This document shows, in pieces, positions 4,577 through 63,919 of a stretch of DNA of 64,000 nt. The stretch lies in IMG/VR virus record IMGVR_UViG_3300020157_000001, positions 27,206 to 91,205 of that record. The stretch is one strand, 5' to 3'. The notes beneath the pieces were generated by a model. It saw only the letters and a program-made list of their open reading frames with translations. It was not told where the DNA came from and did not search any database. Source of the stretch: a virus. The first letter of the stretch is position 1; every line of letters begins with the position of its first letter. A program made the translations under genes and the position numbers.

Positions 4577-6700
4577 CTACCCCTTAGCGTCGTACCAAGA
4601 CCCAGCATACCCTGCCGAAACTTTGATAGGTATACCCCTAATGATACTCCCATCTCCCATAGCATGTATGATCTTGGGTTCCCATTCTCCTAGTTCTTCG
4701 GTAGGAACTGAGAGAACCAACTCGTCATGTACCTGAATGAGAAGCTTTACATTCGTGTTACGGATGAGCTTGTCCACGTTAACGATTGCCTGCTTGCACA
4801 TCTCGGCAGCGGTGCCTTGGACAATAGCGTTCACGGCTTGGCGCTCGGCTGTCATGCGGAGAATACGTATCTTCTCATCGTTTCCAATGAGGTTTAGGTC
4901 AGGAAGTCTACGACGACGACCCCCCATAGTCTCAACATATCCAAGACGACGACCACGAACTACCACTTGTAGTTTCCAGTCTGTCATACCTTGATACGCC
5001 CTGTTATATTCCTTAATGACATCCTTAGCCCTGTCAAGGGTGATGACTCCGTTGGTGCTTTCCACCAAGCGCTTAGCTCCTCCACCGAATCCCATGAGGA
5101 AGTTGGGGGTCTTGCCGTACACCTGACGCTCTTCGGAGGTGACATCATCTACGTGCTTGCCAAGGATAAGGGAAGCTGTGCCAGAGTGAACGTCGATACC
5201 GCTCAAGAAGATCTTGGTGAGGTTCTTGTCCCCTGAGAACATAGCGAGGATGCGTAGCTCCACCTGATCGTAGTCAGCATCGAACAGCGAGTTGCCCGGT
5301 TCTGCTGTGAACAAGGAGCGTACCTTACCATCACGGGGGATGTTCTGTAGGTTGGGGCCGCTGCTGCTGAGACGGCCTGTAGCCGTGCGGTGCAAGTGGA
5401 ACTGCGGGTGCAGTCTGCCTGAGTGGAGCATAGGGAGAAGACCTTCAACATATGTTGACTTCATCTTCGTGAGTTCCTGCCAGCCAAGGAGGTGGTCAAC
5501 TACCTCATGCTTACCACGGAAGGACTCTAGTACGTCAGAGTCTACCGATGGGAGGGGGGCAGACTTAGCTCCTCCAGAGGTGAACTTCGTAGCCTTGAGG
5601 CCAAGTCCTCCCTCTTTCTTACCGGAGAATAGAAGCTGTCGCTTGTGCATGTTGGAGTCAGGGTTGAACCCCAGAGGAACGTGAGGGGACATCAGCAGGA
5701 GGAGGTTGTTCATCTCCAGAGTGAGAGACTTACCAAGCTTAGCCATTTCCCGCTTGTTCACCATCACACCAGCCTGCTCCATACGGGCAATAGGTCCGGT
5801 AACGGATATGTCCCCATACATGGCCTTAGTGAGGGAGGGGTGCTTTGTGATCTTACGGACGAGCTGCGAGTAGAGCATCCATGTCCACCGTGCGTCAAGA
5901 TGCACGTAGTAACAAGCCTTGCTGAACGATATGTTCTCCATATCAGCACCCAGCTTGCCGTCACGATAGTACGGCGACCATTGCTCAAACTGGTTGCCGA
6001 TCACCTTCTCCAGCGAGTAGCTCATCAGGTTCTCGCTGGTGATATGCATAAGGATCATGGTGTCGATGAGGCTGCCCTCAGGCATCCCACCGATGCTCTT
6101 AGCAATCGACCTAGCGTCGAACTTGATATTGTGCCCGACCTTAGGTATAGACGGGTCTAAGAACAGGGGGGCTAATGCACCCCATACTTCTGAGGGAGAG
6201 AGTTGCGTTGGGGGAGGGAGGAAGGTTCCCGGTACGAAGTACTTAGCCTTGGCTCCTGACTCCTTACCCGATGCAAGGACGGCGCGCATACCTAGAGGGG
6301 GCACAGTAGTACCATCGCCCCGCTCAGGAGGAGTAAGCATCTCACCGTGGGGATGAGTCATAGGGATAGCCCACGACTGCCCACGCACAGAGATACCAAT
6401 CCAAGTGACCTCGTTACGCAGAGGGTCTAGCGCCAGACTCTTCGTCCATGCCGCTTCCACTACCTGCTTGCTGCGAGCTATAACTGAGAGGTTGGTTGCC
6501 TTTAGCTCAGCCTGCTTGACGAGCCATTCCCGCTCAACCTCTTGGATGACTTCGGGATGGTTGTAGATGTTGCCGCGTGTCTCTACGTCAAAACAGAAGA
6601 TACCTTCCGTAGTGATAGCGTCTACAACCTCTTGTAATGCTTCGGAGGTCGATACGTAGGGGGGCGTTGCCCCCCTACGTACCTCAGTTGGGTTGACCAT
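4577..6700 (-). CDS. polA-like: Family A DNA polymerase with 3'-5' exonuclease domain
   Basis: 707 residues from ATG at 6700; a TTG 36 bases earlier is possible. The N-terminal DEDD exonuclease shows FCFDVETRG (Asp/Glu about residue 38) and GHNIKFDARS. There is no 5'-3' exonuclease domain, as usual for phage enzymes. Polymerase motif A is DADYDQVELRILA (near residue 474). Motif B is around KTPNFLMGFGGG, where the O-helix position equivalent to Klenow 762 is Phe and the usual Tyr at 766 reads Phe; the Arg-Lys spacing is one residue longer than normal. Motif C is QVHDELVL (near 658). A perfect 13-bp hairpin lies within the first 16 codons. It is the replicative polymerase working with the SSB upstream and the helicase-primase genes. 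Confidence 0.97.
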   Translation of the reverse strand: MVNPTEVRRGATPPYVSTSEALQEVVDAITTEGIFCFDVETRGNIYNHPEVIQEVEREWLVKQAELKATNLSVIARSKQVVEAAWTKSLALDPLRNEVTWIGISVRGQSWAIPMTHPHGEMLTPPERGDGTTVPPLGMRAVLASGKESGAKAKYFVPGTFLPPPTQLSPSEVWGALAPLFLDPSIPKVGHNIKFDARSIAKSIGGMPEGSLIDTMILMHITSENLMSYSLEKVIGNQFEQWSPYYRDGKLGADMENISFSKACYYVHLDARWTWMLYSQLVRKITKHPSLTKAMYGDISVTGPIARMEQAGVMVNKREMAKLGKSLTLEMNNLLLLMSPHVPLGFNPDSNMHKRQLLFSGKKEGGLGLKATKFTSGGAKSAPLPSVDSDVLESFRGKHEVVDHLLGWQELTKMKSTYVEGLLPMLHSGRLHPQFHLHRTATGRLSSSGPNLQNIPRDGKVRSLFTAEPGNSLFDADYDQVELRILAMFSGDKNLTKIFLSGIDVHSGTASLILGKHVDDVTSEERQVYGKTPNFLMGFGGGAKRLVESTNGVITLDRAKDVIKEYNRAYQGMTDWKLQVVVRGRRLGYVETMGGRRRRLPDLNLIGNDEKIRILRMTAERQAVNAIVQGTAAEMCKQAIVNVDKLIRNTNVKLLIQVHDELVLSVPTEELGEWEPKIIHAMGDGSIIRGIPIKVSAGYAGSWYDAKG
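6653..6681. repeat. Perfect 13-bp inverted repeat with 3-nt loop inside the polymerase 5' coding region
   Basis: Left arm 6653-6665 (tacgtaggggggc), loop gtt, right arm 6669-6681 as its exact reverse complement. In the polymerase mRNA it would form a 13-bp GC-rich hairpin about 20-48 nt after the ATG, encoding RRGATPPYV. There is no usable start codon after it before the conserved exonuclease core, so it is part of the coding sequence. It could slow early elongation, hide the ribosome site, serve as an RNase processing site between SSB and polymerase messages, or be a binding site in DNA. Presence is certain; role is inferred. Confidence 0.9.
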
Positions 6701-10809: not shown

Positions 10810-12058
10810 ACGTCTCGTCCATGCCCTCTACGTCGTCCTCATGCACCTCAGAGAACTCCATAGTCTGCCAGTCCCATTTGATATGCACTTCTCCACGGGG
10901 GGCAGTACGGGCTTCGACAACACGGATGATGGACTGGTTGTCGATGTCAGGGTTGCGCTCCACACCAAGTACCAAGTCTGCGTCCTGACCCATAGCGGAT
11001 GAGTAGCCAATGGCATCGGCGGTAATCGCACGCGTACGCTTGTTGTTCAATTTCCAACCAAGAGCCTGCGTGGTACCAATGATAGGGATATCAAACCTCT
11101 GGCATAGACGCTTCATCCCTCGGGATACATTAGTGAGCGCTTGCGGGCTACCCTTTGGCTCACCGTTCTGATCGTCCATCAGATACATACCGTCAACCAC
11201 CACCATGTCAGGCTTCATCTCCTGAATCTTTCCGGCAATAGCATCGACGGTGGTGAGGCTGGACGAGTCTTCGGAGAACATGAACGGATGCATGTTCTTA
11301 CGAGCGACCATCATGTCGTGGATACGAGTCATCTCTGCGTTGCTCATATCGCCACTAAGGATTCTGTCGTAGGGGACTTGAGCGTTGAGAGCGTCCAGAC
11401 GAGAGGCTTGCTCCTCGCTACTCATCTCAAACGAAATGAGTAGAGGCTTCTTGCCGTGACGGTGACATGCCTCTGCCATGATGAGAACGATCAAGCTCTT
11501 ACCACGTTTCTGCTCTCCTGCTACCACGATGAACTGCTGGGGGCGCAGACCCTGAGTGATACGGTCTAGACCGTCGAACCCTGTAGGGATGCCTCGCAGC
11601 GTGTTCGGGTTAGCGCGCATGAACTCGTAGCGTGCAAAGCGATCTTCCCACGTAGAGATTACGTCGATGTCCCGTAGGCGGCTGGCCTCAACGGATGCCT
11701 TCTGCAATCCTTTGGAGAGGATAGACATAGCGCCGTCAACGTCATCAGCCTCAAGGCTGTTCATGGCGTTAGCTGTAGCCTCAAGAACTTCCCGCTGCTT
11801 GTACGCAGTAAGGATCTCCTCAAAGAGTCCGCTGAATGTTTCGTCGGATGAGTCAAGAACCTCTACGTCACCGAACTGAGAATTGAATGCACGCACAGAC
11901 GGCACCGCTGCGTGCTTGCTGTTGTAGTCAAGTATCCATAGGTACTTCGGCTCCCAGATAGGAGAGAAGTGGAACGGCTTGATGCCAGCCTTTACCGACT
12001 CAGTGAGCGACTGTAGCTCAATGATCTTGGAGATAGCTAGGTGCTCATGTGAGGCCAT
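10802..12058 (-). CDS. dnaB-like: DnaB-like replicative helicase
   Basis: 418 residues from ATG at 12058, which overlaps the previous stop as TAATG and has GGGGGGT five bases ahead. The N-terminal 110 residues resemble a DnaB N-domain. The RecA-like core begins at GIPTGFDGLDRITQGLRPQQ, with a Walker A variant GEQKRGKS, a Walker B MVVVDGMYL, a FEMSSEEQASR motif shared with DnaB, and a C-terminal arginine region AMGQDADLVLGVER. It would unwind the fork 5'-3', loaded by the ATPase encoded two genes upstream and coupled to the primase. Confidence 0.94.
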   Translation of the reverse strand: MASHEHLAISKIIELQSLTESVKAGIKPFHFSPIWEPKYLWILDYNSKHAAVPSVRAFNSQFGDVEVLDSSDETFSGLFEEILTAYKQREVLEATANAMNSLEADDVDGAMSILSKGLQKASVEASRLRDIDVISTWEDRFARYEFMRANPNTLRGIPTGFDGLDRITQGLRPQQFIVVAGEQKRGKSLIVLIMAEACHRHGKKPLLISFEMSSEEQASRLDALNAQVPYDRILSGDMSNAEMTRIHDMMVARKNMHPFMFSEDSSSLTTVDAIAGKIQEMKPDMVVVDGMYLMDDQNGEPKGSPQALTNVSRGMKRLCQRFDIPIIGTTQALGWKLNNKRTRAITADAIGYSSAMGQDADLVLGVERNPDIDNQSIIRVVEARTAPRGEVHIKWDWQTMEFSEVHEDDVEGMDETYD

Positions 12059-12513
12059 TAGACCCCCCAAGTTGAGCCGGGGGACATGACTGTACAGCGG
12101 GGGCCGAAGTAGGCAGCGTCGCTCTCAAACGGGGTGTACAGCGTATGCACATCCCTGTTGTACCTAAAGTCGTCCATGAGTCCCTCTGGGTCTTCGTATG
12201 AGTACACGGTTACGGATATTCCCTTACGTGCCAGCCAGTGCTCAATAGGCTCAATGTAGTCGGAGTCGTAGTACGTGTACACATCGACGTTTATCTTGAG
12301 TTGATTGACCATGTGACTCAACGACTTGATCGGCATCTCAGCGGTCTTCCATGACCGTACCACATCGTCTATCGTTATCCCCTGTTGGGGTACTGGCTTC
12401 TGCCAGAACTTCCTCTTCGCAGCGGGGGCATCCTCTTTAGGTATGAGGATCAGACCCTCAAACATGACAGCCACAGAGCTGGTCAGAAACGATCCAATGT
12501 CATTACCTTCCAC
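12058..12513 (-). CDS. Hypothetical protein between helicase and helicase loader
   Basis: 151 residues, overlapping the loader gene by 11 bases and the helicase by TAATG. Alternating hydrophobic strands and helices (FEGLILIPK, INVDVYTYYDS, ISVTVYSYED) suggest a small alpha/beta, perhaps Rossmann- or HAD-like fold, but I see no convincing catalytic motif. It resides in the replication operon in the place where several phages keep uncharacterised replication genes. Function is not assigned. Confidence 0.75.
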   Translation of the reverse strand: MEGNDIGSFLTSSVAVMFEGLILIPKEDAPAAKRKFWQKPVPQQGITIDDVVRSWKTAEMPIKSLSHMVNQLKINVDVYTYYDSDYIEPIEHWLARKGISVTVYSYEDPEGLMDDFRYNRDVHTLYTPFESDAAYFGPRCTVMSPGSTWGV

Positions 12514-13114
12514 GGAGAGTCACCATATCCATATCCTTAGTAGGACCTTCCATCCTACTGGTATAGATATGGCGTATGTCTGCCGCTGAGTGCTCAGAGG
12601 TAATAATCGTCGTAAGCATGTGAGCGTGACGGTGACGGATCAAGCTGCCGATCTCATGCTTGGCAAAGTCGGTGAGGCGCTCCTGCCCTAGACCGTCGAT
12701 GACGAGGATGTCCCATGTTCCCTTGATGTACTTCAAGAGGTGCTGAGATGAGTACATCTCGGGCAGACCCTCGCTGGAGTCAAAGGAATCTTTCACCATG
12801 GCAACGTAGTCATCGGTGTCGATGAACCGCCCACTCACCTTGTGGTTCTCCATAAGGGCGGTGAGCACGTTGACTGCCTGAAAGGTCTTGCCAGTCAATG
12901 CGTAGCCCTGAATGAGCAGGCTCTTGCCGGGGGTGTACGAGGCTACCCACTTGTCAACGGCAGCGATGGATGGGTCTTTCCACGTAGGACTGACCGCACG
13001 TGTAGCAATGGCATGGCGAGCGGGAACCTTGGCGTGATAGACACGCTCTTCTAGTGAGCGGTTACGCCACCAGTTACCGCTCTTCCACTCTCTTGGTGTC
13101 TCAAATGATGTCAC
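12503..13114 (-). CDS. dnaC-like: DnaC/IstB-like AAA+ helicase loader
   Basis: 203 residues. The AAA+ core shows SLLIQGYALTGKTFQAV (Walker A GYALTGKT) and WDILVIDGLGQERL (Walker B, with Asp followed by Gly rather than the usual acidic residue), then the sensor I-like TTIITSEH. Length and order match DnaC and IstB ATPases. It is encoded just upstream of the DnaB-like helicase and overlaps the gene before it by ATGA. The catalytic Glu of Walker B is not visible, so ATP hydrolysis may be weak or use another residue. The loader role follows from family and context. Confidence 0.85.
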   Translation of the reverse strand: MTSFETPREWKSGNWWRNRSLEERVYHAKVPARHAIATRAVSPTWKDPSIAAVDKWVASYTPGKSLLIQGYALTGKTFQAVNVLTALMENHKVSGRFIDTDDYVAMVKDSFDSSEGLPEMYSSQHLLKYIKGTWDILVIDGLGQERLTDFAKHEIGSLIRHRHAHMLTTIITSEHSAADIRHIYTSRMEGPTKDMDMVTLRGR

Positions 13115-13626
13115 AGGTACTCCACGATGATCTCAAACTTAGCCGTGGGTCCGTCCCGTTCACTGACGATACACCTATGGCGTATCTCTTCATCGTGTTC
13201 GGATGACCAAGGCGGCTGGTCGCTGGGGGGAAGACTATCACTCCGCACGTAGTCATTGGCAATGAATGCCAAGATACGTGGTCGGTACTCAATGGGGATT
13301 GGGTTAGCTGCGAGAAGTTTGTCTTGCACTTCCTTTTTGAGGAAGGTAAGGACGGGGCGCGCAACAGTACCCGCAGTGGTTTCGTAGAAGCTATCAATAG
13401 CCTGTTTGATATGCTCCTCTGATATGCCCCGTTTAATCAGTCGGGACATACCGATGAACAAGATCGTCCTGTCATCTTCGGAGAAGACTTGGTGCATCTT
13501 GGTCTTGGGGTGGGAGGTGAAGTACTCTCTGAGTACCGCTGCCCTACCTCCAATGGGTTTACTCTTCTTTGCTTTTGGTGCTACAGAAGGGGGGCTGACA
13601 TCTTCTGATCCTGCTCCATAGATCAT
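13111..13626 (-). CDS. Hypothetical replication-module protein
   Basis: 171 residues from ATG at 13626 with GGAAGG eight bases upstream. The N-terminus is short, basic and disordered, followed by helices (RTILFIGMSRLIKRG, EEHIKQAIDSFYE). The middle resembles a DnaD/DnaC-partner type helical region, but the match is too weak to claim. It precedes the helicase loader (ATGA overlap), a position often held by a replication initiator or loader partner. Its ribosome site begins about ten bases after the base of a large RNA structure (13646-13745), which could control its translation. Confidence 0.72.
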   Translation of the reverse strand: MIYGAGSEDVSPPSVAPKAKKSKPIGGRAAVLREYFTSHPKTKMHQVFSEDDRTILFIGMSRLIKRGISEEHIKQAIDSFYETTAGTVARPVLTFLKKEVQDKLLAANPIPIEYRPRILAFIANDYVRSDSLPPSDQPPWSSEHDEEIRHRCIVSERDGPTAKFEIIVEYL

Positions 13627-13645
13627 ATGTGCCTTCCATGAGAAA

Positions 13646-13745
13646 TTGAGGGGCGGGGGGAAAGGAGGGGAATCCTACTCAGTCACGTGCCGATGCTGGT
13701 ACGGATACCCTCTTCACCCTTGCGGAAGAAGCCCCCGCCCCTCAA
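13646..13745 (-). ncRNA. 100-nt three-way-junction RNA structure between two early genes
   Basis: A 14-bp perfect closing stem joins 13732-13745 to 13646-13659. Inside it, in minus-strand order, is one hairpin with arms CTTCTTCC/GGGTGAAG closed by a GCAA (GNRA) tetraloop. It is followed by a long imperfect arm of about 15 pairs (GAGGG, ATCC, TAC, CAG pairing with CTG, GTA, GGAT, CCCTC) with a 13-nt loop. The short alternative GGTA-TCCG-TACC, a UNCG loop, competes with that arm. It fills almost the whole gap between the Acb2-domain gene and the next gene's ribosome site. I recognise no known riboswitch, ribozyme or tRNA. A leader, translation control or processing element is likely. Confidence 0.7.
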
Positions 13746-13748
13746 GAC

Positions 13749-14771
13749 TTATCCGAGGATGATACCCTTTACTGACCGAGACACAACATCCTCAAGCGCT
13801 TTTAGTGCGAGTGAACGGTGACGGCCTGCGGGAACATTGGAAATGATGTGCTCACCCAACTGGAAGGCGGCGCTGGTGAGGTCGTTGATTGTCTCTGTCT
13901 CTCTACGGCTTGGCTCGCGAGCGTGATCGAAGAGGCTGGCACGAAGTTCCTCATAGCCAACGACTACTGGAGTAGTGGGAGCTGGCAAGGTCAGGTCGCT
14001 ATCACCAAGGGTGACGGGCATGGGCTTACCAATGTGCTGTGAGGGAAGAGGACCTGCCGTAGGCTTGTTCGCTGGATAAGGCTTAGCTGCCTTGGGAGTA
14101 ACGTGTACGGGGAGATCTTCCTTTGGGGGAAGAGCCTGCGCTGGCAAGGTAGTACCAAGGATGACCTTGATGTAGTTGGCCTTGCCTGACACCCCATCGG
14201 GGAGGTTGCCCGTCTCCATAGCGAGTCGCTTGAGCGATGCGACTGGCATGATGTTCAGTTCGTCCTCTGTGAACGCAACGGGGGCATCATCGGTCGGGTC
14301 ATCTTCTACGTACGATGTCGCAGCAGGTGTGACCTCTTCCTTTTCGGGAACAAGGGACAGAGAGATGGGGGCGAGTCCGTTGGACAACTCCAGTACAAGG
14401 GCGCTCTCTGGCACTGTGTCGAACACGAAGTTGACAAGCTCTTCTGCCTCGTTGTCATCCCAGAGGATGAGCACCTTACCCTTGTTCGCCATAGCGCCAA
14501 GGATCTGCTTCTCCACACCGTTCACCTCAAGGGTGCTGCCGGATTCTGCGGATGTGAATGCCTTGGGGGGCTTGTTGTCAGGGTTGTGGTACATGAGGAA
14601 CTGCACGTCGTTGTCAAGAATGTAGTCGTAGGCAGCAGCCAGACCATCGGTTGGCTTGCCGTACCACGGTAGTGCAACTACATCGTCCTCTTCAAGAAGA
14701 TCACGGAGACCTTCTTGGATTACTGTCTTGGGGGCATTACCTGTCCCCAGCAAAGCGTGGATACGTGACAT
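13749..14771 (-). CDS. Three-domain early protein with C-terminal Acb2-like (anti-CBASS/cyclic-nucleotide sponge) domain
   Basis: 340 residues. Residues 1-140 look Rossmann-like, with strands KVLILWDD and SALVLELSNG. Residues 168-206 form a SAP/HeH-like helix-extension-helix (ELNIMPVASLKRLA...GKANYIKVIL). Residues 207-280 are a Pro/Ala/Lys linker. Residues 288-338 resemble the Acb2 helical domain: INDLTSAAFQLGEHI, then VPAGRHRSLALKALED with the P-xx-R-xxx-LA-xxLE pattern, then a final helix. Acb2 proteins bind cyclic nucleotides and block CBASS and related immunity; here the domain is fused to a larger protein. It is the first gene of the leftward early operon, with a promoter-like site upstream, as expected for an anti-defence gene. 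The N-terminal role is unknown. Confidence 0.75.
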   Translation of the reverse strand: MSRIHALLGTGNAPKTVIQEGLRDLLEEDDVVALPWYGKPTDGLAAAYDYILDNDVQFLMYHNPDNKPPKAFTSAESGSTLEVNGVEKQILGAMANKGKVLILWDDNEAEELVNFVFDTVPESALVLELSNGLAPISLSLVPEKEEVTPAATSYVEDDPTDDAPVAFTEDELNIMPVASLKRLAMETGNLPDGVSGKANYIKVILGTTLPAQALPPKEDLPVHVTPKAAKPYPANKPTAGPLPSQHIGKPMPVTLGDSDLTLPAPTTPVVVGYEELRASLFDHAREPSRRETETINDLTSAAFQLGEHIISNVPAGRHRSLALKALEDVVSRSVKGIILG

Positions 14772-14803
14772 CGGGTCTCCCTGTCGTAGGTCTAAGGGTC
14801 GTC

Positions 14804-14832
14804 ACTGTACACCCCCACCAACGTCAATGCAA
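14804..14832 (-). promoter_or_regulatory. Candidate sigma70-like promoter of the replication operon
   Basis: On the minus strand TTGCAT (14827-14832) and TACAGT (14804-14809) are separated by 17 bases and lie about 33-61 bases before the ATG at 14771. Each hexamer matches consensus at four of six positions. The GTGTACA-(A/G)-T around the -10 is also found in the strong plus-strand endolysin promoter at 62558, which supports it. There is no other good promoter in this gap. Confidence 0.5.
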
Positions 14833-14843
14833 GTAAGACTTGG

Positions 14844-14859
14844 TGTGACCCTTGTCACA
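14844..14859. terminator. Short hairpin at the end of the tail-gene operon
   Basis: tgtgac (14844-14849), loop cctt, gtcaca (14854-14859), overlapping the stop codon of the last tail gene. It is only a 6-bp stem without a clear T-run, so it is at best a weak terminator separating the virion operon from the early promoter. It could instead be an operator-like palindrome. Confidence 0.35.
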
Positions 14860-15430
14860 TACCTCGAACAGCGTTGTACGCAACGATTGAGTATTTAGCT
14901 TCCTCGGTGATCGGAAGGGTCGAAGTAAACAAAGTCTGCATTGCACCAACTGTCTTCTGATAGTCCTCGGAATAGATTGATACCGAGTTGTTAGCAGAGC
15001 TTACCCATCGGTAGTCACTGACCGCTGAGAGTATGCCGCCTATGGGCGTTGACCCGTCAAAGTACGTGCCAAGGAAGTTCACCTCTGCAAGGAGGTTTGC
15101 CGCTGTAAACGACCCTACCGACAGGTCAACCATGAACTCAACGAGGCAGTTGGTGTAGGTGGATGCGTTGGTAAAGGCAGTTACTGGGATCTCTACTACA
15201 GATACACCATTGATGATCTTGGAGCCGCTGCTCATCCCGACGATGCGGTTGGCTGAGTCGATGAGCCGCCCCCACTTAATCGCTGTGGTAGTACCTACGG
15301 AGAAGTAAGCACGGTCACCAAGTAACACGGGGATCACACTGTAGGCGGGGGAGAGGCTACCTATAGTAATGACCGCCCCCGTAGAGGGAGTAGTAGCAGT
15401 CCAAGTCTGACCAGAGAGAGTAACAGTCAT
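14855..15430 (-). CDS. Tail-fibre or baseplate-associated protein, unknown family
   Basis: 191 residues from ATG at 15430, one base after the stop of the giant baseplate gene; GGGACGG lies about nine bases upstream. It is rich in Ser, Thr, Val and Tyr with many short beta strands (AVITIGSLSPAYSVIPVLLG, VVEIPVTAFTNASTYT) and few charges, typical of fibre or lectin-like virion domains. No known domain is visible. It is the final gene of the leftward tail operon, so it probably partners the LamG-rich protein at the tail tip. Confidence 0.7.
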   Translation of the reverse strand: MTVTLSGQTWTATTPSTGAVITIGSLSPAYSVIPVLLGDRAYFSVGTTTAIKWGRLIDSANRIVGMSSGSKIINGVSVVEIPVTAFTNASTYTNCLVEFMVDLSVGSFTAANLLAEVNFLGTYFDGSTPIGGILSAVSDYRWVSSANNSVSIYSEDYQKTVGAMQTLFTSTLPITEEAKYSIVAYNAVRGM

Positions 15431-15431
15431 A

Positions 15432-18400
15432 CTAAACCGTCCCGTAGTAGGTGTTGATTGCTGCAATTTCAGTAGCGGTGAGCGCCCGTCGGAATATGGC
15501 TACAGCGAGAAGCTCCATCTGTGCGTATTGTGCCCCCCCAATGTCTTGACGACCTATGGTCATTGGTCCAGAGTTAGCAAGAGTTCCTACGGTGAAGTCT
15601 GTAACGGGTGTTCCCGCTACACCGTTTGTGTACAGAGTAACTTGGTCTGTCGCGGTATCCCGAACGCCAATCACGGTATTTACGGTCCCCGTTGTCGCAG
15701 TCGTATTTCCAGCAGCGATAGTTCCACCTGCGTCTCCAGTGATGGCCATGAATTGGGTGGAGCTTGGATTACCGTTGGTCAGATACCACCCTGAGGAGAC
15801 ACCGACGTTTGACCACTTCATTGCTATACGGGTGTCGGCGGGCGTGGTGCCCCATTGGCGTACAACTCCCACCACTGTGAATGAGTCTGTGGCAGAGAAA
15901 TCAAGTAAGTCGTTGTCTGGCACTTCCATATAGCTGGAAGATCCAAAAAGCCATGTTGGGCGGGTGACAGCTACTGCCTTCTTACCTGCTGCTGTGCTAC
16001 GGTTGATTGCCATTTCTTGACTTGATCTGGCGGGGTCGATCCATAGCACAGCAGTGGAGAGAAGCGCTACTGACTCTGCTGTCTCTTCTCCTTGGTAGTG
16101 CGTATTGATGAGAGCAACTTCAGTTGCAGTGAGAGCACGACGGAATACTGCTGCACCGTACATTTCAAACTCACCAAAGTAGACGGGGGTTCCACCTCCG
16201 TAATCAGAGCCAATGAGGAATGGAGCGGCGTTCGCTACACCCAATGTAGTTATGTCCGTAACACTAGCTCCAGCACTAGCACCAGAGTATGTGACTAGTG
16301 AGTCTGTTGAAGCGTTACGTACCCCAGAGAATACAGTTAGCGCACCAGCAGCAGGAACAGGTGAAAGTGACTCCGAGGTTTGACCTGTGGTACCAGCGTC
16401 TATTCTTAGACTTGTACCAAAGCTTGATTTTTGCAGAAAGCTAATAGTAGGAGAGGAGGGTGTTCCCGCTGATCCTTTAGAGAAGATACGCACATCGTTT
16501 GAGGGAGACCCCCACTGTCGGAGAGCAGCAACCATTGTGAATGAATCAGTAAGAGCAAAGTCAAGCAGGTCGTTGTCTGCTATAGACATGTAGTCGTTAC
16601 CACCGAATAGGAAGGTGGGGCGCACAACCGTCGCCCCCTTGTGTCCAGTGGTAGAACGAACCACAAGCGCCTTCTGTTGTGACGAAGCTGCATCAATCCA
16701 GAACTTAGCTGTATTGAGGATGGTTACAGCAGCGCTATCGAAGGCAGTGGTGTAATGGTTAGTGATCGTTGTGATCTGTGCTGCGCTTAGTGCGGACTTG
16801 AACACTGCTACAGCAATCAACTCAAAGTCTGTGTTAGTTCCGAAGAATGTTCCTAGTTGGCTACCTATACGAAGGGGGGACGTATTGGTCAGAGTTGATG
16901 TAGTGGTATCTGACACAGTAGTGCTAGCTGTGCCGTTGTTGTAGGTACGAAGCAACAAGTTGGCCCGATCACGAACACCTGCCATTACGTTGATTGTTCC
17001 CGCTGTTGGGGCGACAGCGGAAGCTACGTTGGGTGAGGCGGCAGTGTCACTAACAAGGAACTTAGTGGAGGTTGTGGTACCACTGTTATACAGGAGCCAA
17101 CCGGGTGTGTTAATTAAAGAGGTATACGCACCCTTGGTAACGAGTTGACCGTTAGTTTGAATAGTGTTCCATTGTCGGGTAACCGCTATTACCGTGAACG
17201 AGTCTCCTACTGCAAAGTTAATGTCAGCATGATCGGGGGCTTCCATGAAGTCGTCCCCACCAAAAAGCCAGACCGGGGCTTCAACAAGAACACCCCTACG
17301 ACCACTTGTTCCTCTTGAGGCTGTCCACACTCGTCCATTGGACGTTCCACCAGTTTGCCCCATGTCATTAGCTGACCAGTTAAGAACTGGGTTAGCGGTC
17401 ATATCTAATCCTGACCAAATCTTTGCCGCATAGTACTTGCCAGCAGTGAACGCTGCGCCTGCGTTATCTCCACCTACGTTGACGGGGACGGCACTAGCAC
17501 GGATGTTTGTCACACCGGAAGTGGTCACAGTTTCGTAGTTAGTCCAGTTAACCCCATCGGAAGATCGGTAGAAACGACAGGTAAAACCACCCGCACCGTT
17601 GTCAACGTCTAGAGATGCTCCAACCCACATCTTCTTGCCAGCAGGTATGCCATGAGGAACGATTCCATAAGCTGCACCGCTAGTACCTGCTGCTGTATTC
17701 CATACAAACGCTAAGGTTCCGCCTAACGTAGCGCTGCTATGAGCATTCAGTTGGTAGTTGTTAAATGATGAATCTACACCGCTAGCACGCTTTCCAAGAA
17801 GCCCTCTTTCAGAAGTAATATCATCAAGCTGAACCTGAACAGCTACCGCAATATCACCTGTAATACATACATCAGTAGTTGAGGGGGTTGACATGTAGTT
17901 TGCACCGCTGGTGAGACCGGGCTGATACCAATACTTATCCCCGTAGAAAGGCAGGTGCAGGGGGTCAGAAGTATCAGAAGCAGTAGCGTACTTACCGGCT
18001 TTAGCATTGAGAGCAGATCCTGTAGCACCAAGGTTCTTAATCAACTGGGAAGATGACCCCGCAACAGGGATCGAAGTCTGCGTGCCAGAAGTGATTTGCT
18101 TAGTGAAATCAATATCTACAATCGCCTGTCCAGCAATACCATTTCGTACTATAGCCCGATAATGCTTTCCTGTCATTGAGCCGTACCATGTACCCGATGT
18201 GTTCTGTGTAGTTGCACCAAACCCCATTGGATATCCGGTGTTAGCACGGGTGTTAACTATGCGTGTGTCTGTGTTAGCACCGATAGTTGTCCACGTAGTC
18301 GGTTCTGCTACTTGATCGGGGGCGTAGTAGAAGGTGGTAACGCCAGCACTAGCGGAGCGTGTGACCTTCAGCCAAAGTGTTGTACCGTTAGCAGGACGAG

Positions 18401-37624: not shown

Positions 37625-38152
37625 TCAGGGGAGCGTATCTGGCCAAGGAAGGTCTTGTATATTTGGATGATTAGAGCTAAACACATCGTTCATCATCTCT
37701 TGATCGACATACACTTCCTTACCACTTACACGGACAAGGACTTCTCCACGAAGGCGACCCCTTACCGTGTAAGTAGCCACTGAGTAATACCGACCATCGT
37801 ACAGGAACAGATCCTTCATACGTGGTTGGTATTCCCATGGGGTGGTAATGCCTGCACCGATCATGGCCTTCATGGAGATAACAATATCGGTGTTCTGAGT
37901 CGGTTGACGACCAGTGTCGATAGCTCGGTTGTTATCTTCCTCTTCACTAACAAAGAGAGTGGGGACTGTTACTCCAGCTTTATAGGTAAGACCAGTAACT
38001 CCTCGGGGGGACTCGTCATATACATCGTCGTACACGCTCCCCTCTGACAAAGACAAGAACTCGTACCACACAACTGCCTCTCCAGCCTGTCGCTGGTGGC
38101 GCTCGTAGTGCTTGTTAATGTTATTTAGTTCTCTACGAAGGTCGAGGCTCAC
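37625..38152 (-). CDS. Head-tail connector protein (head-closure candidate)
   Basis: 175 residues, ATGA overlap with the upstream adaptor. N-terminal helix rich in Arg/His/Glu (RRELNNINKHYERHQRQ), then a beta barrel with SMKAMIGAGITTP and KDLFLYDGRYYSVATYTVRG, resembling head-closure or stopper proteins that cap the portal channel. The gene order of adaptor, closure, terminator, sheath supports this. The family is not certain. Confidence 0.72.
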   Translation of the reverse strand: MSLDLRRELNNINKHYERHQRQAGEAVVWYEFLSLSEGSVYDDVYDESPRGVTGLTYKAGVTVPTLFVSEEEDNNRAIDTGRQPTQNTDIVISMKAMIGAGITTPWEYQPRMKDLFLYDGRYYSVATYTVRGRLRGEVLVRVSGKEVYVDQEMMNDVFSSNHPNIQDLPWPDTLP

Positions 38153-40887: not shown

Positions 40888-40952
40888 AGAGGTATTCTCC
40901 TTATGGTATGAAATTACACTTACTGCTACAACTATACCATAGGGTATATGGA

Positions 40953-40976
40953 AAGGCCCCCCTTGCGGGGGGCCTT
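40953..40976. terminator. Hairpin terminator after the major capsid gene
   Basis: aaggcccccc (40953-40962), loop ttgc, ggggggcctt (40967-40976): a perfect 10-bp GC-rich stem lying about 30-54 bases beyond the capsid stop. In the minus-strand transcript the loop is GCAA and the stem is followed by TTTCC rather than a long U-run, so intrinsic termination may be partial. Such partial stops after the capsid gene raise capsid dosage over downstream genes. Confidence 0.75.
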
Positions 40977-41006
40977 CCCACTAATATCAGAAGCGAGGTA
41001 CTACCA

Positions 41007-63891: not shown

Positions 63892-63919
63892 GAAAAGCCC
63901 CCCAAATGGGGGGCTTTTC
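63892..63919. terminator. Strong hairpin terminator after the endolysin, works in both directions
   Basis: gaaaagcccccc (63892-63903), loop aaat, ggggggcttttc (63908-63919): a perfect 12-bp stem with a tttt run in the plus transcript and aaaa in the left arm, so it can stop transcription from both sides. It ends the lysin unit and meets the minus gene entering from the right. A second small hairpin (gtgac-tggt-gtcac) precedes it. Confidence 0.9.

Follow-up and report, generated by a model that had tools for sequence, protein, structure and literature searches.

A 100-nt region between an acb2-like gene and the first gene of the replication module (positions 13745–13646, minus strand, 5' to 3') is predicted to fold as a three-way junction, and with roughly even confidence we read it as a cis-acting structured region of mRNA that would give the replication transcript a control of translation and/or stability separate from that of acb2. 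The window, i.e. the 64-kb stretch of DNA analysed here, is part of a 91-kb virus record, and since every gene around the element lies on the minus strand, this is the strand relevant to the element. Most likely it is a fast-evolving, lineage-specific leader of an ordinary kind; it is a further example of structured phage mRNA leaders, outside any named family and not a new class.

The gene preceding the element (13749–14771, minus strand) encodes a 340-aa acb2-like protein with a C-terminal match to the Acb2/Tad1 hairpin domain (phrog_1454 and Pfam PF24729, the latter a weak match of 22.3 bits, below the cut-off of 27). It is followed by the gap, a 171-aa protein (13111–13626), a DnaC-like loader, a 151-aa protein, DnaB, a primase and a SNF2-type helicase, all on the minus strand. 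From alignment and neighbouring genes, the 171-aa protein would be the initiator-like first member of the replication module, its function being read from the genes around it. It aligns with the N-terminal part of syntenic proteins of 237–240 aa and of a 436-aa protein that has an N-terminal winged-helix match; the version in the window (171 aa) is thus shorter than those of the relatives (∼237–240 aa or 436 aa). The gap between the acb2-like and 171-aa genes measures 122 nt, and the element occupies everything except the Shine-Dalgarno (SD) region: its closing stem, P1, begins 4 nt past the acb2 stop and ends ∼20 nt before the 171-aa gene, whose SD-like GGAAGG (13632–13637, minus strand) lies 5 nt ahead of the ATG (13626–13624). 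The limits given in the initial annotation (13646–13745) were exact, both flanking genes are on the minus strand, and its description of the element as filling the space between the Acb2-fusion gene and the next gene's ribosome site was accurate.

Three parts of the predicted fold, each described in that annotation, were reproduced on the minus strand: a perfect 14-bp closing stem (P1; 5' arm TTGAGGGGCGGGGG at 13732–13745, 3' arm CCCCCGCCCCTCAA at 13646–13659; pair probability ∼1.0), a hairpin capped by a GCAA (GNRA) loop (13713–13730, loop 13720–13723; pair probabilities 0.68–0.94), and a long imperfect arm (13665–13712; pair probabilities 0.5–1.0). The minus-strand minimum free energy (MFE) was −54.3 kcal/mol with a z-score of −5.3, and none of 200 shuffles folded equally well. 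Among 1,280 minus-strand segments of 100 nt the element had the lowest energy and ranked approximately 8th by z-score, about seven segments being better. Across the 64 kb, no perfect inverted repeat other than P1 reaches 14 bp within a 120-nt span; dinucleotide shuffles produced a mean of 0.03 repeats of this kind per window. A competing UNCG hairpin had also been proposed, and its sequence, GGUA-UCCG-UACC, is present on the minus strand (13698–13709), but the hairpin is unpopulated: alone it reaches −2.7 kcal/mol, and every one of its pairs stays below 2% in the ensemble. The suggestion that GNRA and UNCG loops are hallmarks of selection therefore amounts to weak evidence, given that a terminator-like hairpin elsewhere in the window (40949–40980, minus strand) carries the CCGCAAGG loop that also caps the element's GNRA hairpin. 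That hairpin and another at 63892–63919 (minus strand) are both terminator-like GC hairpins with T-rich tails. Rfam 15 gave no match at the gathering threshold in the whole window or in ten relatives' loci (the one match below threshold was mir-H1, E 2.7, on the plus strand), which agrees with the earlier view that no known riboswitch or ribozyme is present; the element shows no sign of binding a ligand or of being catalytic.

The close relative of the window is one viral contig (L001 plus overlapping loci), which carries the same genes at 87–95% DNA identity (acb2 at 95%; 91% overall). Both the fold and the spacing are retained in L001, and the differences within the element fall in the stem and in a C-rich tract. 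One exact compensatory double change in P1 replaces G-C by A-U, a G-C to G-U change keeps its pair on the gene-sense strand only, and a gap removes one pair at the base of the arm. A 63-nt core is identical between the two genomes; this was dropped as a sign of selection because neighbouring genes hold similar runs (five, of 65 to 149 bases) and the local identity permits it. A leader peptide was likewise rejected, as no frame is conserved and flanking indels shift the frame between the window and L001.

When viral contigs were searched for further copies with the core pattern CCGCAAGGNTGAAGAGGGNA, L001 was the only one to contain the element; phage records matched neither the DNA of positions 11000–16000 nor the 171-aa protein, and a DnaB search of bacterial and archaeal genomes found none. 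The element is known from two closely related phages only. The initial annotation had called for a search for compensatory changes and for retained pairing and spacing in homologues: pairing and spacing were both kept in the one close relative, and the compensatory change from G-C to A-U was found there once, set against a sample of two genomes and one lost arm pair. Two genomes cannot prove selection on the fold. It is nevertheless plausible, with moderate support, that the gap holds a selected RNA structure, in that L001 keeps the stem and its spacing with one compensatory pair and relatives have structured leaders, although the element is known from two phages and some relatives have no gap at all.

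DnaB-based searches yielded about 80 syntenic loci, to which an initiator-based search added further leaders, and the acb2/initiator boundary took three arrangements among these relatives. Long-gap loci have terminator-like hairpins with T-rich tails after acb2, plus opposite-strand ORFs; in the one long-gap member tested (L017), the initiator-like protein has an N-terminal winged-helix match. Short-gap loci have 108–163 nt in the same syntenic place between the acb2-like and initiator-like genes, and their leader (L097, L099, L107, L109, L110, L112, L114 and L117; L113 in part) comprises a promoter, a GGCACC/GGUGUC hairpin at the predicted start and a long GC hairpin directly before the SD. 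In no-gap loci (L020, L022, L023 and L065) acb2 abuts the initiator gene directly, so that, where present, the gap separates the expression of the two. On a DnaB tree the short-gap and no-gap loci have the window and L001 as their sister group, on a long branch; the short-gap leader requires at least two changes on this tree. Opposite-strand ORFs upstream of the initiator-like gene were seen in the long-gap loci L026, L066, L055 and L121, and one such ORF looks, by eye, like a Dps/ferritin-like protein.

The short-gap leader is itself covarying: 7 of 14 pairs were changed on both sides, a count reached by none of 500 shuffles. These counts used a hand-set alignment of the helix arms because the RNAalifold structure in the covariance model was poor; the arms were picked as paired, which biases the percentage of paired cells, while the both-side changes are real sequence differences. 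Seven of the nine short-gap leaders, as well as L119, had promoter-like matches of at least 9/12 positions, where chance would give 0.03 per 220 nt. Relatives mostly scored 9–10/12 versus 8/12 in the window, whose gap has no good promoter: the best candidate, TTGTGT-16-TATCAT (13759–13786, minus strand), is weak and located inside the acb2 end, with 0.1 such matches expected by chance per 220 nt and an equal score in L001. This leader and the element occupy the same gap between the same flanking genes, both strongly structured and directly before the SD of the initiator-like gene; unlike the element, the short-gap leader has a near-consensus promoter, and its hairpins stand in series where the element has a closing stem. 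A covariance model of the short-gap leader (R1, a weak model with 11 pairs) found no match in the window or L001 at E up to 10, so homology of the element to this leader is not shown, and the two share only their position and being strongly structured. An apparent second copy of the leader motif (G011:C1:2716) was discarded, as it looks like a ribosome site read on the opposite strand.

Our preferred reading is that the three-way junction would fold between the acb2 end and the SD of the replication module's first gene, and would probably set how well the replication transcript is translated and/or how stable it is, independently of acb2. It could act as a structured block beside the SD on a transcript reading through acb2, or as the 5'-proximal structure of a transcript beginning near the acb2 end. 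Most economically, such a setting of its own would replace the close two-gene coupling of the no-gap relatives. What the data show is the predicted fold, its place, its retention in L001 and the structured leaders with promoters at this place in relatives; that the element is transcribed, where the transcript begins and whether translation or decay is affected are inferred. The reading is favored because the stability of the fold exceeds chance, because L001 keeps the fold with compensatory and G-U pairs, because no reading frame is conserved across the two genomes, and because syntenic relatives hold structured, covarying leaders with promoters in the same gap. Against it stand the two close genomes, the absence of a good promoter in the gap, the lack of a match to the relatives' leader under the weak model R1, the lost arm pair and the equally stable plus strand. 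If it is true, this phage group sets the expression of its replication module from a module boundary where RNA leaders turn over quickly, some of them accompanied by a promoter, and where the gap is in some cases missing altogether; this would provide a natural series for the gain, loss and replacement of regulatory RNA amid fixed genes; the window alone would hold a modest regulatory element that has no described family.

A terminator or attenuator at the acb2/replication boundary, in which P1 and the short U-rich tail UUUCUC right after it (13640–13645, minus strand; the same in L001) would pass part of the acb2 transcript onward, is unlikely but has some points in its favor. The stem lies just past the acb2 stop, the GC-rich stem followed by a few U resembles intrinsic terminators, and the terminator-like hairpins after acb2 in long-gap relatives indicate an old module boundary. 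Unlike intrinsic terminators, however, the element has a branched loop of 72 nt and a weak U-tract and sits directly ahead of a gene's SD, whereas the phage's own terminator-like hairpins are compact. A scan for intrinsic terminators (GC stem, loop of 3–8 nt, at least 5 T in the 8 positions afterwards) did not list the site, whose tail TTTCTCAT has 5/8 T. Moreover, in short-gap relatives the long hairpins have a promoter upstream and no U-tract, and the ∼20 nt between stem and gene leave no space for a new promoter.

RNA structures at gene starts are well described in phage T4, where the mRNAs of genes e, soc, 49 and I-TevI have structured translation-initiation regions and where gp43 and gp32 each use upstream RNA structure to repress translation of their own mRNA (PMC3014915). 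The element resembles these initiation regions in having RNA structure at a phage gene start, with nearby promoters and read-through from upstream genes; it differs in that the T4 SD/AUG lies inside a helix, and here the SD lies just outside P1. It likewise resembles the autogenous operators of genes 32 and 43 as structured mRNA ahead of replication genes, but the folds differ, and in T4 a protein site forms part of the structure. It is doubtful that the junction is a regulated switch or phage-protein-bound operator coupling the onset of replication to another signal, with the gap a hotspot of repeatedly evolved, unrelated structured RNAs. Slightly more doubtful still is an RNA switch or autogenous operator in which P1 would hold a pyrimidine tract (TCCCCTCCTTTC, 13660–13671, minus strand), a potential partner of the SD, away from it until a protein or other signal shifts the balance. 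The T4 precedents would fit such a switch, as would L001, in which CCUUCC is predicted to pair with the SD GGAAGG once the 5' arm of P1 is removed. However, pairing between tract and SD was not above that of shuffled sequences (p 0.66 in the window, p 0.19 in L001) and was significant in two of nine relatives' leaders, and no ligand or protein is implicated. In its folded context the SD region of the window is ∼34% unpaired, through weak pairs. General sequestration of the SD by the pyrimidine tract was rejected, being non-significant in most leaders.

Less probable again is a chance, unselected structure in a G-rich/C-rich spacer. There are two genomes, with an overall identity of 91%, local identity is high enough to account for the unchanged 63-nt core, and several relatives have no gap, all of which would suit this explanation; it sits poorly with a z-score of −5.3, the lowest energy in the window, a stem of which 0.03 are expected per window, and the exact compensatory double change in L001. 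We consider least probable a DNA-level element, such as a cruciform or a protein-binding inverted repeat forming part of a replication origin: the two strands fold equally well (plus-strand MFE −53.2 kcal/mol), the element adjoins the initiator-like gene and iteron-like repeats lie close to the counterpart of this gene in L121-type relatives, but no iterons were seen near the element in the window, cumulative GC skew has no clear turn there, and it is only the gene-sense strand that has GNRA and UNCG-type loops and that preserves the pair changed from G-C to G-U in L001. Near-equal folding of the plus strand is expected because the element is an inverted repeat, and energy alone therefore cannot tell an RNA from a DNA role, nor which strand is preferred. 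In L121–L131, iteron-like repeats around GGGGTCACCAGTGACC lie ∼100–220 bases upstream of the initiator-like gene and are followed by a 13-bp hairpin before the SD; together these possibly represent a replication origin.

A side result concerns the region upstream of acb2 (L005, L008, L010, L011, L020, L021, L023 and L065; window positions 14804–14832). Relatives have a promoter-like site at −55 to −60; most also have a hairpin (7–10 bp in most) in which the acb2 SD is paired to sequence located at the predicted start site, e.g. AACUCUCC..GGAGAGUU (L011), GCUGCUCC..GGAGCAGC (L020) and CUGCUCC..GGAGCAG (L021). Transcripts from acb2's own promoter would lose part of the 5' arm of this hairpin, while read-through transcripts would carry it whole and be silenced, a logic like that described for T4 gene e. 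At this place the window has a hairpin of just 4 bp and a promoter match of 7/12. This observation may equal the main finding in worth.

Elsewhere in the window, the best folding z-score (−8.85) belongs to a perfect 13-bp hairpin, TACGTAGGGGGGC/GCCCCCCTACGTA (6653–6681, minus strand), which lies inside the apparent first codons of a DNA polymerase A gene (about 4577–6699). The second-best z-score (−6.8) was found at 37701–37800 (minus strand), overlapping the gene at 37625–38152.
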